Source: a virus
IMG/VR virus record: IMGVR_UViG_3300042555_003141
Coordinates: 1 to 26,873 of that record
Reading direction: 5' to 3' (one strand)
Length of the DNA: 26,873 bases
The position numbers and the translations under genes were made by a program. Positions 4,233 through 21,258 of the stretch are shown here, piece by piece. Below the pieces are notes generated by a model. The model worked only from the letters and a program-made list of their open reading frames with translations. It was not told the origin of the DNA and did not search any database. Position 1 is the stretch's first letter; every line of letters starts with the position of its first letter.

Positions 4233-4799
4233 ATGGCCGAGAATAATTACGATGAGATCAACCAGCTTTTACATAAATACAAAGCTGGAAATGAAGAAGC
4301 ACTTTTTGAATTATATGAATTCTATAAACCTCTCTTTATTTCATCAGTTAAAAGAATTGTTCAAAAAGAATCTCGGCTTTCTTCGCATAGAGAAGATATT
4401 TTAAGTGATTCTATATTTGTTCTCAAGAAATTAATCGACCAATATGATCCAAAGTTATCTTATTTTTCTTATTTCTTATCAACAAGAATAGACATAAATT
4501 TATTCAGATATACCGCTGATAAATATTTCCCAAAAGAAGAAATTTCAGATGATGATTATTTTCCTGAAGAATATGAAGATCCATTTAATAAGATTGACAA
4601 TGTAATTTGTATACATCAAGCTATGGATCAATTGAGTGAAAAAAGCAAGGAAGTAATCCAAGTCTATTTCTTCGATGGATTAGATCAAAAAGAATGTGCT
4701 GAAACTCTAGGTATTACTCAAGGGGCTTTTTCAAAAAGATTATCAAAAGCCCTTGAACAAATGAAACTAATTCTTGGTGAAGATTTCTTATTTGATTAA
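4233..4799 (+). CDS. ECF-like RNA polymerase sigma factor
   Basis: The 188-residue protein has sigma regions 2 and 4 only. Region 2 spans about residues 18-80 (ALFELYEFYKPLFISSVKRI, then REDILSDSIFVLKKLIDQYD and SYFSYFLSTRI). An acidic linker follows (EEISDDDYFPEEYEDPF, about residues 93-110). Region 4 is about residues 128-180 (AMDQLSEKSKEVIQVYFFDG, then QKECAETLGITQGAFSKRLS), a clear helix-turn-helix. It would bind host core polymerase and direct it to phage promoters, plausibly the late class. The start is preceded by TATAAT, so it might read its own promoter. The gene overlaps the convergent minus-strand peptidase gene by 12 nt. With the left-edge SigH-like gene this makes two sigma factors within 5 kb. 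Confidence 0.85.
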   Translation: MAENNYDEINQLLHKYKAGNEEALFELYEFYKPLFISSVKRIVQKESRLSSHREDILSDSIFVLKKLIDQYDPKLSYFSYFLSTRIDINLFRYTADKYFPKEEISDDDYFPEEYEDPFNKIDNVICIHQAMDQLSEKSKEVIQVYFFDGLDQKECAETLGITQGAFSKRLSKALEQMKLILGEDFLFD

Positions 4800-7499
4800 T
4801 TTTCTGTAATTGAAAACGCTAGCAATTTTGTCTTCTTTTCTTTCTATAGTAATATCAACTTGTTGATCATCTTTTTCTGCATCATCAAAGCCTGGAAAAT
4901 TGCCAGGTGGTCTTCCAGTACCTTTATATCTTGGAATAATAACGTCAATCTTTCTGCCACTCGGGATAGGCTCTGTTTGTTGAATTTGAAATCTTGCGTG
5001 TTGTTTAATGTCTTGTGCTGTTGGTGGTTCTTGTTTTTTAGCTTCTTCACGTAATTGCTGATTTTCTACTCTTTGATCTTCGCCTTGAGGATTAATTGTA
5101 TCTGTTGTAAGTAAGCCATCTGCTACAGCTTTCGCAATTTTGCTATAGTAATCTGCTAAATATCCCTCAACTACAGCCTCAGATACATCTTTCACATCAA
5201 AGATAAGCATTCTCCCTGATTCAACTAAATTTGTTTCAACTTCTTTTAATTCTTTTTCGAGTTTGGTTCTTTCAGAAGAATAAATAGGGGTAGATTCAAT
5301 TTGTTGAGCTAATTGATTTTTCTTACCAATCAACCCTCTTCTATAATCACGTCTTCCTTGAATTTGAAAAGTCTCGTGAAAAATCATTTCCAATCTGTTT
5401 CTTTGACGCTGTAATTTTTTATTAATTACTTCAAGAGGATCAGTTAATGTAATTGTTTGTCCTGTAGATGAGGTGTAAGTTCCAAATCTACCAGTCTCCA
5501 TATCTTCAAGTAATCTTTTAGCATTTGTTCCACCTGACATCAAGTGAATCATTTCATCCTGGATATCTAGAATCCATTGTTCTTTGGCAGCTTGATAGAT
5601 TTTTGGATCTGCCATCAATTTTCCAATATGAGCATCAAAGATTCTAGCCAGATAAGGTATATCTCCGTGAATTCTTGCATATAGTTCAGAAGGATCAGAT
5701 ATGTAAGCTTCTTCAGGAGTCAATTCTGGATTTAAAGCTACAGAATCTTCCATCATCAAATCTCCAGATTGAAGATACTGTAATGCGTGAGCTACTTCGT
5801 GTCTTTTAGTGGCTTCAAGATAATGATTAGCATCCATTCCAATATTTTCAGCTAATTTTCTATGAAAAGCTAATTGAGACCATATATCTGTTTTGATAAT
5901 AATTGCTGGACGTGGACCCATATCTTTTGTTGGAAATTTAGGTACAAATAATCCACCCCATTTCTCATCAGTAAAATCTACAGGACCTATTTTTAATTTA
6001 GGCACATTATTTTCTCGCATAAAATTCTTTAAGCTATAAGTGCTAAATTCTACAATCACCATTTGATCAGCATATTTACTTATATCTTCAGTACTTACGC
6101 CAGCAAATGGAGCTTCTTGTTGCATACGATCTTCATATGACTGTTGGAACTTTGAAAATATTTCATCAGACTTTTCTTTTTGTCTTTGTTCGCTTTCAGA
6201 CATACCTTGTGGTGCTGGGTCTCTTTTTGGTCCTTTTCCGTAAGCATAATTAAAAGCAGTGTCAGAAGCTTTAATTATTTTTATAACTCCTTCTTGTTGT
6301 GCTTTTTCTAAAAGAGCAAAACCATCAGATTGAATTCTGGCTTTTGCAGCTTTGCCTTTTTGTTGAATTTGGTTTTTAATTTCACTGCCAAGGCTGTCTA
6401 ATAAATTAACATCAAATTTTTCATAATCTTCTGGATTTTTATCTAAATAATTTATAATAACTTGTGGTTTTGCAATTCCCTTGATTATAAATAAAGGAGA
6501 GCATTGATCACCTTTACTATCAATAAGATCCATAAATTTTTTGAAAGATTTAAGTTTTCTTATTAATAAAACATCTTGATCAAAATCATACTCACCGATA
6601 CTTGAGTATAACTTTTCTGCTATATTTTGGCAAAATCTATCGTACTGTGGGTATTCATCGATTTTTACAGCTACGTTAATTTGAGTTTTGTTTGGAAGAT
6701 AGTGAAGCATACTTGCAACATCTACTTGATCAAAATCTTTCAATAATAACTCAAAAACAATTTCTAAAATTTTGCTTTCGGTAATACCTGAAAAAATGTA
6801 TTCTTTGATGTTTGGAAAATAGAATTTTCCCTCTCCACGTCTAATTAAATTTACAACATTTTCTTGATTTTGAAAATATTCTAATTCTGGTCTGGCTTCA
6901 AGAAGTTGATAAACAAGCAAGTTTCTTTGTTGAGAAAGAGGATATCCTAGTAAGTTAACATCATCTCCACGAATGATAAACATAGCTAGTGCCTCATTCA
7001 TACTCGTGCCTTTTTTCAAGAGTAAATTTAATGTGGTAAATCCCATACCAAGAGTGCTATTGACAGATGATTTTACTTTGTCAATATCTGGAATTCTATC
7101 ACCAAGTTCTATGCCATTTCCGCCTCTTGATTTTATATATTCATTGAGTTTGCCAAGAAAGTCTAATACTTTCATCATATCTGTATTAGCAGAACTTCCT
7201 TGTTTTTTCATTTCATTATCAATAAATTTTGATAAATTATAAGAAAAAATTGAAATGTCAGACAAAGTACTGCCGTCATTTTTCGCTTTCTCAAGATATT
7301 TATCAATAATTGAATCACCAGTTCTGCCCTTTTCTATATCTCCTATAAACTTGAGCATAGCAGTCATAGTAGGGTTTTCATTTGGATCGTAAAATGAAAA
7401 ATCTTTGAAAGTTCTAGAGAAAGAGCCAGCCCACAAAACTTCTTTAGTAGATAAAACGTCCCAGGCTGTTGCAGATTCGATAATTTTTGAGTACCACAT
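4788..7499 (-). CDS. Large protein with HEVAH zinc metallopeptidase motif
   Basis: This 903-residue protein is the only minus-strand gene and starts with MWYSKIIE. Residues H567-E568-V569-A570-H571 form an HExxH zinc-peptidase signature inside a helix (KRHEVAHALQYL), and E605 in DPSELYARIHGD is a plausible third zinc ligand about 34 residues on, as in gluzincin-type enzymes. The N-terminal 400 residues are mostly helical with no family I recognise. A charged coiled-coil-like stretch follows the peptidase region (about residues 690-760), and the last 110 residues are low-complexity and end KIASVFNYRKLIK. There is no signal peptide, so an intracellular or virion-packaged role is likely: proteolysis of a host or phage protein, or an internal head protein. 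The opposite orientation and 12-nt convergent overlap with the sigma gene suggest an independently regulated unit. Confidence 0.72.
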   Translation of the reverse strand: MWYSKIIESATAWDVLSTKEVLWAGSFSRTFKDFSFYDPNENPTMTAMLKFIGDIEKGRTGDSIIDKYLEKAKNDGSTLSDISIFSYNLSKFIDNEMKKQGSSANTDMMKVLDFLGKLNEYIKSRGGNGIELGDRIPDIDKVKSSVNSTLGMGFTTLNLLLKKGTSMNEALAMFIIRGDDVNLLGYPLSQQRNLLVYQLLEARPELEYFQNQENVVNLIRRGEGKFYFPNIKEYIFSGITESKILEIVFELLLKDFDQVDVASMLHYLPNKTQINVAVKIDEYPQYDRFCQNIAEKLYSSIGEYDFDQDVLLIRKLKSFKKFMDLIDSKGDQCSPLFIIKGIAKPQVIINYLDKNPEDYEKFDVNLLDSLGSEIKNQIQQKGKAAKARIQSDGFALLEKAQQEGVIKIIKASDTAFNYAYGKGPKRDPAPQGMSESEQRQKEKSDEIFSKFQQSYEDRMQQEAPFAGVSTEDISKYADQMVIVEFSTYSLKNFMRENNVPKLKIGPVDFTDEKWGGLFVPKFPTKDMGPRPAIIIKTDIWSQLAFHRKLAENIGMDANHYLEATKRHEVAHALQYLQSGDLMMEDSVALNPELTPEEAYISDPSELYARIHGDIPYLARIFDAHIGKLMADPKIYQAAKEQWILDIQDEMIHLMSGGTNAKRLLEDMETGRFGTYTSSTGQTITLTDPLEVINKKLQRQRNRLEMIFHETFQIQGRRDYRRGLIGKKNQLAQQIESTPIYSSERTKLEKELKEVETNLVESGRMLIFDVKDVSEAVVEGYLADYYSKIAKAVADGLLTTDTINPQGEDQRVENQQLREEAKKQEPPTAQDIKQHARFQIQQTEPIPSGRKIDVIIPRYKGTGRPPGNFPGFDDAEKDDQQVDITIERKEDKIASVFNYRKLIK

Positions 7500-12759: not shown

Positions 12760-13251
12760 ATGCCTATACCAATTAAGCCAGTACACTCTTTAGATTTGCA
12801 TGCAGAATTATTTGACGGACCATCAATGGAAGGTCTTGGACTTTCTGATATTCAAATTCAACTTCTTGGTGTTTCACAAGCTCCTAAAAAAGCAGAAGCA
12901 GCTAAATTAAGTGAAAAATATTTGGAAATGCTTAAGTCAATTGATGCAAATACAGATGCTTTAGTTACTGCTGCTAGCTATGTTGCTTTACACAAAGACA
13001 GCAAAGTATGTGGAGTTCCTACTGAAATTTCTGATAATGATCTTTTAGCTATGAAAACTGCTGGATTACTTACAGGTTATGGTAGATCTGTAGAATTGAC
13101 TGAAAGAGCAAGATTAGCATTACGTGATCATTATTTGAGCATAGATAATGTTAATGAATTTAGAAAGCAAAGAACCAAAGATAGATTTGATCTTGAAGAC
13201 GCAAGAAGTGTGAAAGCATCTTCAAATAAATTTAAAAAAGTTGGTTCATGA
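12760..13251 (+). CDS. Hypothetical protein; ends in a TGA followed by an in-frame DUF192 extension
   Basis: This 163-residue protein has an AAAGGA Shine-Dalgarno 8-9 nt before its ATG. It is mostly helical (LSEKYLEMLKSIDANTDALV; LTERARLALRDHYLSIDNV), contains a short conserved-looking segment SDNDLLAMKTAGLLTGYGRS and ends in a basic tail. No family is recognised. Its stop is TGA in the context TCA-TGA-CTC. The same frame then continues without interruption into a complete DUF192 domain (13252-13632), so a readthrough product of 163 residues plus one recoded residue plus 126 residues is possible. TGA followed by C is known as a leaky context in bacteria. Confidence 0.72.
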   Translation: MPIPIKPVHSLDLHAELFDGPSMEGLGLSDIQIQLLGVSQAPKKAEAAKLSEKYLEMLKSIDANTDALVTAASYVALHKDSKVCGVPTEISDNDLLAMKTAGLLTGYGRSVELTERARLALRDHYLSIDNVNEFRKQRTKDRFDLEDARSVKASSNKFKKVGS

Positions 13252-13326
13252 CTCACTAATGAAGAATTCCGTGATGAATTCGATGTTAGGTTTGTAGCAG
13301 ATACTGATAAATTACGAAGTAAAGGA
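13249..13326 (+). other. TGA stop and startless N-terminus of the DUF192 domain
   Basis: After the TGA at 13249-13251 the frame reads 25 codons with no ATG, GTG or TTG before 13327. These codons encode FDVRFVADTDKLRSKGL, which matches the first strand and the RxxGLM motif expected at the DUF192 N-terminus. ATG codons at 13248 and 13259 are in other frames and stop after 3 and 12 codons respectively. This is a candidate readthrough segment, or the scar of a mutated start or fused gene. Confidence 0.6.
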
Positions 13327-13632
13327 TTGATGCATGCAGAACCTTTGGGAGAATATGAAGTAGTTTATTTTACTTTTGATTATCCTGATTGTTATTCTTT
13401 TTGGAATAAGAATGTGTCATTTCCACTTTCTTTAGCTTTTTTAGACAAAAATCATAAGATTGTGGACTTTAAAGATATGGAAGCAGATGATCCAAAATCT
13501 GTTTCTCCAGATTCTAACAACGTTGTATTTATTGTAGAAGCAAATAAAGGCTTGTTTAAAAAACTAAAGATTGGTATTGGAGACAAATTGCTCTTGAAGG
13601 GCAAGAAACTAATTTTGAGTAAAAAAACATAA
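13327..13632 (+). CDS. DUF192 domain protein
   Basis: The first usable start codons are TTG 13327 and ATG 13330, giving about 101 residues. The domain is recognisable from FWNKNVSFPLSLAFLDKNHK (counterpart of FWMKNTxIPLDIAFLD), IVDFKDME, SPDSNNVVFIVEANKG and LKIGIGDKLLL (counterpart of GIKVGDxV). DUF192 is a small beta-barrel of unknown biochemical role, found in bacteria, archaea and many phages. Starting at 13327 cuts off the first strand and begins inside the GLM motif, so this form would be truncated; the full domain reaches back to 13252 with no start codon. An AAAGGA directly before the TTG is too close for efficient use. Either the protein is made as a readthrough extension of the 12760 product, or the gene is damaged. 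Confidence 0.72.
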   Translation: MMHAEPLGEYEVVYFTFDYPDCYSFWNKNVSFPLSLAFLDKNHKIVDFKDMEADDPKSVSPDSNNVVFIVEANKGLFKKLKIGIGDKLLLKGKKLILSKKT

Positions 13633-18888: not shown

Positions 18889-21258
18889 ATGGCAAATAGA
18901 ACATCATTGGCTTCTGCTATCAGAACAGCAGCAACACAAGTATCAGGAGCACCAACAAGCACAACTACTGTAGAGAGAAATTATGCAAGTAGTCGAATTG
19001 GTCTAGGATTAGGACCAAGCGTCACTAGAACTGCAAGCATAAACACAGTTACTACAGCTCCTAACTTCTATTCACCATTTCTTACTCCATCATCGTTTCA
19101 AATCCCAAATGCTCGACGTGAAGTTTATCTTTGGGCAAACTGGTGGAGAAACAATGAACCAAAAATTGCTGCAGCCATTAATTTCTATACTAACTATCCT
19201 TTCTCTGGATGGAAATTAGAATGTTCTTCATCTTACGTAAAAGATTACTTTGAAAAGTTAGTAGAATCTCTTAACTTTCAAAAATGGCTGCCAGAAATTT
19301 CCAAAACATATCACTTATTAGGTGATTCTTTTGTGCTCCTTTCATTGGACTGCCCACATTGTCATGGATCTAACTGGGATGATGACAAAAATCAAGAATG
19401 TCAACATGATGGTGCTACTTGGAAATCAATTTCAATTCTTAATCCAGATTCTGTAATTAAAACTCCAGGAATGATTGATCAAGCTGGAAGCTATGCTTAT
19501 CGACCATCTGCTGAAGAAATAAGAATTGTAAACGAAAGAAATCCTAAAGAAATTTACGATTCAATTCCTGACAACATCAAAAAGATGATTATTCAGGGTA
19601 ATCCAATTAAGTTGAATCCTATTTCTATCCACCATTTTAAGTATGGATCAAACCCATGGGAAGATTATGGAATTTCTATGATTCGCCCATTATTTCCAAT
19701 CTTAACTTACAAAGATAAATTACGTCAAGCACAATATATGATTGCAGAACGTCTTATCTTACCAATCAAGGTTGTAAAGATTGGTAGTGATACAAGACCA
19801 GCATCACAAGAAGATATTGACAACGTGCAAGATGAATTGGCATCTATTGCCAATGATCCAAACTTGACTCTTGTTACTCACCACAATTTTGATCTTGAAT
19901 GGTATGGAGCTACTGGTAAAATTCATCCTCTAACTGGTGAATTTGAACTTATTGAACAAGAAATCTTAGACGGCGTTATGCTCAACAAAGCTCTGTTGAA
20001 TGGTGAGGGCCCAACTTATGGAAACGCTCAAGTTGGACTTCTTGCAATGGCTCAAAGATTAGAGACATTTAGAAGAGAAGTAGCCCATTGGATTGAACAA
20101 AATGTTTTCATGCCAGTTGCAAAATGGAATGGCTTTGTAATTGAAGGCGAGAGAGGACAAGACGAATTAGTCTATCCAAAAATCAAATTTGATGATCTGC
20201 AATTGCGTGATGATACTGGTAAGTTGCAAATGCTTGTCACTGCAAATCAAAATGGAGTGATTTCCAACGTTTCATTGATTGAAGCTTTCGGGCTTGACTC
20301 TGATCAAGAAATTGAAAGACTTAGATTTGAACAAGGTGCAAACTTTGTAAATGATCAATCTTTTGGTACTCCTAATGTTTCATTAAGTTTTCAGAGTGGT
20401 GGTGTTACTGGGCAAGGTTTTGGAGCAGCAACACCCAATGCATCTGCTGGTATTGAAGGAATGCCACCTCCTGCTGATCTTTCAGTTGGTGGTACGCCTC
20501 CTGCTGGTGGTGCTCCACCTCCTGCACCTGCCGCTCCAGGAGCTGCACCTACAGCTTCTGTAATGAATAAGTTCTACAAAGTTGCTAGTTCTACAATTAA
20601 TGAAATTTACACTGAAAGAATAGAGGCAAAAAATTCAGGCGTAAGAACTGCTAGCAAGAAAATCAAATCTGCAGCCCATGAAGGTTTCTTGAAATCATTA
20701 ACTCCAGTAACAGGCAGAGGATCATTAGGTCCTTTACCAGATGAATATGATGGATTATTCGGCACTTTGTATATACCAATTATGGGTGGTGATAATTCTC
20801 ATCCATTAAATAATTATGCTCTAGAAGAGATTTATCAATTTGCCAGCAACGAAAACGATTCAATAAAAAAATATGCAAAAAAGAAAGTAGATGTTTCTCA
20901 GCAACCAAAAATGTTTACTAATCTTGAAAAGAAACTTTATGGACTGATGATGTCTTTAAACATGCCTTTTCCCTTATATGCACAATATTCTGCTGGTCCT
21001 ACAATGGATTATCAACTAGATGCAGCTATTCCAAACTTGAAACTTGGAATTGAGGCAGATGGTGAAATTTGGCATAATAACCCAGACAAAATTGCAAAAG
21101 ATAAACGTAGAGATTCTGAATTGGCTGCAAATGGCTGGATTATCATCAGATTTACAGATAAAGAATTGAATGATCATCCTCAAGATTGTTTAAACGTGTT
21201 AATTAAAGTAATTAAGCGAAGAACAGGTATGGGAGAGGGTAATTCGGAATATCTATAA
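18889..21258 (+). CDS. Portal protein fused to a C-terminal Vsr/DUF559-like endonuclease domain
   Basis: The 789-residue protein has a portal region at about residues 60-490: LWANWWRNNEPKIAAAINFY, YPFSGWKLEC, HLLGDSFVLLSLD, then SIHHFKYGSNPWEDYGISMI, IAERLILPIKVV and EGPTYGNAQVGLLAMAQRLE, typical of the clip, stem and crown order of large-phage portals. A Cys/His insertion (C155, C158, C171, H173) sits in the wing. A Pro/Gly/Ala linker (about 495-555) leads to a C-terminal module. Residues about 676-778 fit a PD-(D/E)XK nuclease: NLEKKLYGLM (E680), YQLDAAIPNLKLGIEADGEIWH (D711, E722, D724, H729), DKRRDSELAANGW and IIIRFTDKEL. This pattern is the DUF559/Vsr core, with catalytic residues kept. 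A portal carrying a nuclease is unusual. No intein splice motifs were seen, so it reads as one continuous fusion. Confidence 0.85.
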   Translation: MANRTSLASAIRTAATQVSGAPTSTTTVERNYASSRIGLGLGPSVTRTASINTVTTAPNFYSPFLTPSSFQIPNARREVYLWANWWRNNEPKIAAAINFYTNYPFSGWKLECSSSYVKDYFEKLVESLNFQKWLPEISKTYHLLGDSFVLLSLDCPHCHGSNWDDDKNQECQHDGATWKSISILNPDSVIKTPGMIDQAGSYAYRPSAEEIRIVNERNPKEIYDSIPDNIKKMIIQGNPIKLNPISIHHFKYGSNPWEDYGISMIRPLFPILTYKDKLRQAQYMIAERLILPIKVVKIGSDTRPASQEDIDNVQDELASIANDPNLTLVTHHNFDLEWYGATGKIHPLTGEFELIEQEILDGVMLNKALLNGEGPTYGNAQVGLLAMAQRLETFRREVAHWIEQNVFMPVAKWNGFVIEGERGQDELVYPKIKFDDLQLRDDTGKLQMLVTANQNGVISNVSLIEAFGLDSDQEIERLRFEQGANFVNDQSFGTPNVSLSFQSGGVTGQGFGAATPNASAGIEGMPPPADLSVGGTPPAGGAPPPAPAAPGAAPTASVMNKFYKVASSTINEIYTERIEAKNSGVRTASKKIKSAAHEGFLKSLTPVTGRGSLGPLPDEYDGLFGTLYIPIMGGDNSHPLNNYALEEIYQFASNENDSIKKYAKKKVDVSQQPKMFTNLEKKLYGLMMSLNMPFPLYAQYSAGPTMDYQLDAAIPNLKLGIEADGEIWHNNPDKIAKDKRRDSELAANGWIIIRFTDKELNDHPQDCLNVLIKVIKRRTGMGEGNSEYL

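Follow-up and report, generated by a model that had tools for sequence, protein, structure and literature searches.

A conserved in-frame UGA, probably a programmed recoding site, precedes a DUF192 domain in the terminase-portal region of giant phages

Introduction

To our knowledge, programmed in-frame readthrough of a stop codon is known in phage mainly from Q-beta, an unrelated RNA phage, and its relatives. The frame of the Q-beta coat gene continues past its UGA stop into a second domain, giving two products, coat and A1, from one start (NC_001890; PMC8067240, in part). Extended products also arise by frameshifting, as in tail genes of the P2 E/E+E' type, where a shift at a slippery site yields a short and a C-terminally extended protein (PMC3091744, in part), and the Escherichia coli gene prfB (RF2) has an in-frame UGA followed by CU (TGA CTA) at which ribosomes move into the +1 frame (PMC5009743, in part). 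Certain jumbo phages read TGA or TAG in hallmark genes as sense, a change that extends across genes and is judged by coding density (PMC13037316, in part). Bacterial selenocysteine (Sec) insertion at UGA depends on a SECIS hairpin, modelled in excerpts of PMC13188914 with a loop of 3-9 nt, a stem of 4-16 bp and a position 16-37 nt from the UGA, a G within the first two nucleotides of the loop (usually as N(0-1)G[G/U]) and a minimum free energy (MFE) of at most -7.5 kcal/mol. Among the open-access papers surveyed in PubMed Central, we found no report of single-site readthrough in tailed or jumbo phages and none of a phage selenoprotein.

The locus described here lies in a window of 26,873 nucleotides, the whole stretch of viral DNA that was analysed (positions 1 to 26,873 of IMG/VR record IMGVR_UViG_3300042555_003141). 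Between terL and the portal gene, a gene that we call gene A ends at a TGA behind which the same frame encodes a DUF192 domain. An earlier note, made from the window alone, had read this arrangement as possible stop readthrough, and comparison with related loci supports that reading in the form of programmed recoding, which we now regard as very likely.

Results and discussion

Organisation of the locus

The gene A stop stands in the context TCA TGA CTC, and from 13252 the frame runs on through 126 codons until it meets a TAA at 13630-13632. The features of the locus are as follows.

12760..13251, plus strand: gene A, 163 aa, the product of ordinary termination
13249..13251, plus strand: in-frame TGA, very probably a recoded stop; TGA in 409/409 records with the stop visible
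13252..13254, plus strand: CTC codon after the TGA, a leaky 3' context; CTC, CTG or CTA in all records
13252..13632, plus strand: DUF192 extension, accessible only if the TGA is decoded; Pfam match at 13294-13590
13264..13281, plus strand: upper stem-loop GAATTC-CGTGAT-GAATTC, SECIS-like; stem 13264-13269/13276-13281, loop 13270-13275
13256..13289, plus strand: lower stem CTAAT/GTTAG, weaker, flanking the upper stem-loop; 13256-13260 pairs with 13285-13289, and some clades are without it
13327..13329, plus strand: first in-frame start, TTG, within the GLM motif; a start here drops the first strand

Residues 15-113 of the extension match PF02643 over profile positions 5-94 of 96, with 72.7 bits (cut-off 27) and an E-value of 2.7e-20, which bears out the claim that the frame runs past the TGA into a full DUF192 domain. 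The absence of ATG, GTG and TTG from the first 25 codons of the extension was likewise confirmed; codon 26 is the TTG at 13327, which encodes the Leu of GLM, so that the first usable start cuts the domain inside this motif as had been stated. In a model of the fusion (mean pLDDT 63, the DUF192 part mostly 70-85), the first DUF192 strand occupies residues 173-180, between the TGA (position 164) and the TTG (position 190), and since the TTG follows the strand, initiation there would be predicted to remove it. The DUF192 part of the model resembles the solved DUF192 structures 3m7a and 3pjy (Foldseek E 1e-6). The likeness to DUF192 (PF02643, COG1430) is thus one of sequence and predicted fold; the solved relatives are separate cellular proteins, whereas the phage copy is found as a readthrough domain only. 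We know of no established function for DUF192 in cells either.

Protein A and its neighbours

Gene A has no Pfam match. Its residues 46-129 were modelled as a winged-helix-like fold (model pLDDT 64), with VIA Z scores of at most 7.5 to MarR-type and other winged helices, under the tool's caution line of 8, and with Foldseek E-values of 0.16 or worse for the gene A model; the predicted winged helix in the middle of the protein therefore falls below identification. The gene lies between terL and portal. By analogy with other phage genes that yield products of two lengths, the A-DUF192 fusion would probably be a less abundant form of a virion or packaging protein that carries the extra domain.

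Three other genes of the window deserve mention. The portal gene (18889-21258) encodes a C-terminal domain (residues ~704-775) like DUF559/MTES_1575 restriction-type endonucleases and so constitutes a portal-nuclease fusion. An adenylosuccinate synthetase-like gene at 1127-2128 (333 aa; PF00709, E 5e-85, the profile being longer at 416 positions) could belong to a modified-purine pathway. On the minus strand, 4788-7499 encodes a 903-aa protein with an HEVAH motif, possibly a metalloprotease.

Conservation of the TGA and of the frame

To gather relatives, viral contigs were scanned six times, the queries being gene A, DUF192 and profiles from two rounds; four of the scans contributed the best 80 of 99, 114, 110 and 110 relatives, the weakest relatives thus lying outside the sample. 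A total of 419 records were examined; excluded were ten whose contig stops within gene A or does not include its start. Record counts include some contigs fetched repeatedly, as well as the window and its own record; we therefore also give distinct junctions, defined as 30 nt before the TGA to 60 nt after, of which there are 64 (63 at full length).

The earlier note had proposed aligning homologous loci for a TGA or a sense codon at this position, and the stop proved to be TGA in all 409 records in which it is visible (64 distinct junctions, best-80 scans included), with no sense codon, TAA or TAG among them, while gene A identity to the window copy drops to 50% within the sampled relatives. 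The linker between TGA and domain varies in length by whole codons only, and DUF192 is in frame 0 in each of the 406 records where it was detected. In all eight large records the domain occurs once, solely at this site, and the terL-to-portal gene order is kept in the 15 tested loci holding the site, as far as the loci reach and their genes were detected. Searches of bacterial and archaeal genome contigs and of the phage collection yielded no gene A relative, and the DUF192 query matched a single record of that collection, at 30% identity over 67% of the query. No glutaredoxin family was detected in eight records. The carriers are a family of large uncultured bacterial viruses (giant phages) forming a broad lineage.

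Recurrence of the arrangement in 409/409 records excludes chance or error as its source. A recent nonsense mutation, a pseudogene or a sequencing error, which the earlier note had named as the main alternative, drew its support from the single-window view alone; with this TGA shown by all 64 distinct junctions, which stem from many IMG/VR contigs, purifying selection on the extension (see below) and the domain present in 8/8 large records, it is no longer a serious contender and we give it a negligible probability.

DUF192 might instead be a separate gene, translated from a non-AUG start or by re-initiation after the stop. A homologue in which the domain has its own start upstream would have spoken for this, and the earlier note had named such a homologue as grounds for giving up readthrough; no start codon (ATG, GTG or TTG) precedes the first-strand R-F-x-A motif in any of 65 distinct longer junctions. 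A start codon does lie between R-F-x-A and GLM in 11 of the 65, and a start at GLM loses the strand. CTG, a weak possible start, directly follows the TGA in 22/61 distinct genes, but in 38/61 the first codon is CTC, for which we know of no case as a start codon. An ATGA overlaps the stop in 17/65 distinct junctions, but its ATG is in another frame, and the two other frames meet stops within ~24 codons of the TGA in 60/61 and 61/61 distinct genes. We consider a separate gene improbable.

Two further ways past the stop were set aside. Frameshifting is of no help, since DUF192 lies in frame 0 and neither alternative frame stays open; no shift separates the domain from gene A, in contrast to P2-type tail genes, which shift at a slippery site, and to prfB. 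Variation in the codon that precedes the TGA (TCT, TCA, GGC, ACT, AAA, ATA) makes a hop over the stop unlikely.

Selection on the extension

We estimated dN/dS from 272 pairs, 80-97% identical, among the 61 distinct complete genes and obtained 0.062 for gene A, 0.131 between the TGA and GLM, and 0.107 for the remainder of the extension. The two latter values make it very probable that the extension is translated and of use, and, as judged from these substitution patterns, the DUF192 extension is under purifying selection. The proportion of synonymous differences (pS) in the first 15 columns after the TGA is 0.154, compared with 0.411 for gene A and 0.335 for the remainder; this trough is not the deepest of the gene, quieter windows lying toward the 3' end of the extension. 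There, at alignment columns ~+93 to +107 and +119 to +134 after the TGA (within 13252-13632), synonymous sites are quieter than those behind the TGA, as if another nucleotide-level signal overlaps late DUF192.

Ordinary use of TGA and the context of the stop

The two largest records, 358 and 316 kb long, were scanned in 20-kb pieces, so that ORFs spanning piece ends were missed; in them TGA terminates 57/311 and 36/267 ORFs of at least 100 aa (93/578), and is thus a normal stop. Another TGA with an open extension of 62 codons, in record G001, was rejected as a comparable site; it is not conserved, a relative having TAA or TAG there.

This usage bears on a global reassignment of TGA, whether through an alternative code or through a suppressor tRNA of the phage. 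The frame would be open if TGA were sense, and TGA reassignment has been reported for some jumbo phages (PMC13037316, in part), which are likewise large; there the change affects many genes, whereas gene A has one such site in genomes that use TGA as a general stop. tRNA genes were present in 4/12 records and none in 8/12, all 12 of which may be fragments; in the four records, the codons read by the ARAGORN-called tRNAs are those for Leu, Lys, Ser, Met, Asn, Glu, Gln, Thr and Arg. None of these calls reads UGA, and two uncalled weak hits have no TCA anticodon by eye. With 93/578 ORFs ending in TGA and no UGA-reading tRNA among those called, we regard reassignment as very improbable.

Immediately behind the TGA, the 409 records have CTC (308), CTG (97) or CTA (4), and the 61 distinct genes CTC (38), CTG (22) or CTA (1), all Leu codons. 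In these same genes TTA, CTT and TTG account for 1753 of 1966 Leu codons, and the preference for CT[C/G/A] despite this usage points to nucleotide-level selection behind the TGA. CT follows only 2 of the 93 TGA stops that end ORFs of at least 100 aa, and both are copies of gene A. Two cis elements are accordingly recognised, UGA-CU[C/G/A], which has no exception in the records, and a small hairpin.

The context suggests that a standard tRNA, most likely tRNA-Trp, may misread the UGA, helped by a poor terminator and a hairpin that slows the ribosome, in the manner of Q-beta A1. E. coli prfB has the same UGA-CU context (TGA CTA), the Q-beta UGA is read as Trp at a low level (PMC8067240, in part), the residue before the TGA varies, and a lack of sense variants is what would be expected if the ratio of the two products is under selection. 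Against this, the Q-beta UGA is followed by A and not by CU, and no G[G/U] loop was found behind the coat UGA (NC_001890) by the hairpin test described below. The parallel with Q-beta drawn in the earlier note consequently stands as a functional one, and the part that tied it to UGA followed by C does not; in context the site matches prfB instead. Near-cognate readthrough is, in our estimate, distinctly possible, with a probability clearly short of even.

A hairpin behind the UGA

The window hairpin, GAATTC-CGTGAT-GAATTC, begins 12 nt after the TGA and its loop begins at nt 18. Among 28 sequences of the same FRDEF type, the outer pair of the upper stem is G-C in 18 and A-U in 10, and each of the six lower-stem pairs is unpaired in 0 to 6. 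Upper and lower stem together pair in 94.6% of alignment cells, compared with at most 44% for slid versions. In the clade alignment the covariation score exceeded all of 500/500 shuffles, but neither the count of pairs altered in both arms nor that of pair types did so, and covariation support for the predicted hairpin is limited.

Other clades carry unrelated stems in about the same place (CATCAA-AGTT-TTGATG, TCA-GTT-TGA, GAAC-TGGAT-GTTC), and reading of the sequences suggests about eight or nine independent hairpin types. RNAalifold gave no consensus over all 41 sequences, because linker lengths differ and hairpins shift between clades, and gave one only from the 28-sequence FRDEF-type alignment. 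Folding energy alone is a modest and unconvincing signal, with a mean codon-shuffle z of -1.08 in 44 distinct sequences and, in 13 representatives, a z of -0.9 after the TGA and of down to -1.24 in windows 19-22 codons downstream. A second region of low folding energy in these shuffles, at ~13306-13356 (codons +19 to +35 after the TGA), is perhaps an extended 3' structure.

Geometry and loop motif

The SECIS geometry and G rule, applied to the MFE structure, hold for 55/58 distinct downstream sequences, and geometry with the MFE limit for 38/58, including the window type (-8.7). The corresponding figures are 500/2246 and 143/2246 for control sites, and 526/1160 and 165/1160 for codon-preserving shuffles; in a rerun with a wide box, geometry was found in 55/58 sequences versus 113/571 sites inside gene A. 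Under a stricter rule, an N(0-1)G[G/U] loop is present in the most stable local hairpin of 50/55 distinct sequences, the GU of the loop having been spotted before the test was framed, versus 9/90 other TGA stops (11/92 when two copies of gene A are included), 14/398 TAA stops, 5/87 TAG stops and 35/1043 sites inside gene A, or 3-10% overall. The motif was found in 10 of 11 representatives less than 76% identical, which are nevertheless related and several of common ancestry, versus 75/454 hairpin-giving codon-preserving shuffles (17%), and with the wider box in 49/58 sequences versus 33/571 sites inside gene A.

In most members the loop starts at nt 16-23 after the UGA. The E. coli Sec genes fdhF, fdnG and fdoG likewise have a UGA followed by C and an N(0-1)G[G/U] loop starting in a similar place, and as positive controls all three were recovered (two distinct sequences, fdnG and fdoG being identical there), with loop GGTC at nt 18 in fdhF and GTC at nt 19 in fdnG and fdoG. 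The prfB UGA also scores, with loop GGAAGA at nt 24, and as this is a frameshift and not a Sec site, the hairpin test is not specific for Sec sites. The GG loop of the prfB record (L489) is probably due to chance, at the ~10% rate of other TGA stops.

The loop motif is missing from its usual place in one subclade (L253, L258, L303, L305 and L310). Several of its members have GAGTTT-GAWTTA-AGACTY farther 3', with the loop GAWTTA at nt 27, and the subclade offers a natural test of which feature matters.

The agent that decodes the UGA

In geometry and loop the hairpin looks like a bacterial SECIS, and this likeness raises the possibility that the residue inserted at the UGA is selenocysteine. 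The hairpin would then act as a SECIS at which host SelB brings Sec-tRNA in competition with RF2, placing Sec at residue 164, and production of the fusion would be confined to hosts that have the Sec trait. The fit of 55/58 sequences to the geometry, the motif in 50/55, and a loop start at nt 16-23 in most members, close to that of fdhF and of fdnG/fdoG, are in keeping with this proposal; dependence on a host Sec system would also explain why UGA is found in all records, UAG and UAA never, and why the loop is kept. A link between phages and Sec has a precedent in the tRNA-Sec genes of Bacillus phages (PMC6145125, in part). Near-cognate readthrough, by comparison, leaves unexplained the G[G/U] loop motif shared by unrelated hairpin sequences.

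Several observations weigh against selenocysteine. Cys homologues exist for nearly all selenoproteins (PMC13188914, in part), yet Cys or another sense codon occurs at this position in 0/64 distinct junctions. Residue 164 sits in a linker, and the alignments of gene A, DUF192 and the fusion contain no invariant Cys; C84 of gene A, nearly invariant in a set of 21 sequences, is not so in 24 more diverse ones. The site thus differs from bacterial Sec genes in its linker UGA, in the lack of an invariant Cys or a detected Cys homologue, and in stems that are A/U-rich and change from clade to clade. Rfam returned no SECIS match at the site, only one chance-level snoRNA match, and the hairpin test also scores prfB. 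The tRNA-Sec model matched, in 12 phage records, only where ordinary tRNAs also match, its best score being 47.7 bits (cut-off 47) for a gene that ARAGORN calls tRNA-Ser; no SelB wing was found in eight phage records. Overall, we place the selenocysteine reading a little short of an even chance.

If recoding is granted, Sec insertion by host SelB and tRNA-Sec has about an even chance, a figure that owes its height to the SECIS geometry of the hairpin, and near-cognate readthrough (e.g. by tRNA-Trp) stimulated by the hairpin somewhat less than that, leaving a small share for anything else. The choice between the two is about even, with a slight lean to selenocysteine.

Proposed mechanism and implications

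Comparison of sequences establishes the conserved TGA, the in-frame extension and selection on it, the context, and the hairpin with its loop motif. Readthrough itself, its level and its agent we infer, and we propose that the TGA at 13249-13251 is, with high probability, a site of programmed in-frame UGA decoding which, whatever the agent, yields protein A and an A-DUF192 fusion. Most ribosomes would probably stop at the TGA and release protein A (163 aa), and a minor share would insert a residue at the UGA (position 164) and continue into DUF192. The outcome would be a 290-residue fusion, presumably the minority product, made in a set ratio to protein A from one gene of the terminase-portal region. 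The host Sec machinery may serve as the device that sets this ratio, a SECIS and SelB extending a fixed or selenium-dependent share of protein A, a proposal that we hold tentatively, at just under an even chance.

The finding would extend readthrough to a site conserved over a broad phage lineage and joined to DUF192. If the hairpin is a SECIS, it would represent a Sec signal working without a redox site. The fusion would then be a phage selenoprotein in which Sec decoding is valuable for making the fusion and not for the chemistry of the residue, and a virion or packaging function would be tied to the selenium status of the host. Because gene callers split or truncate readthrough genes, further phage proteins may have gone unnoticed for this reason.
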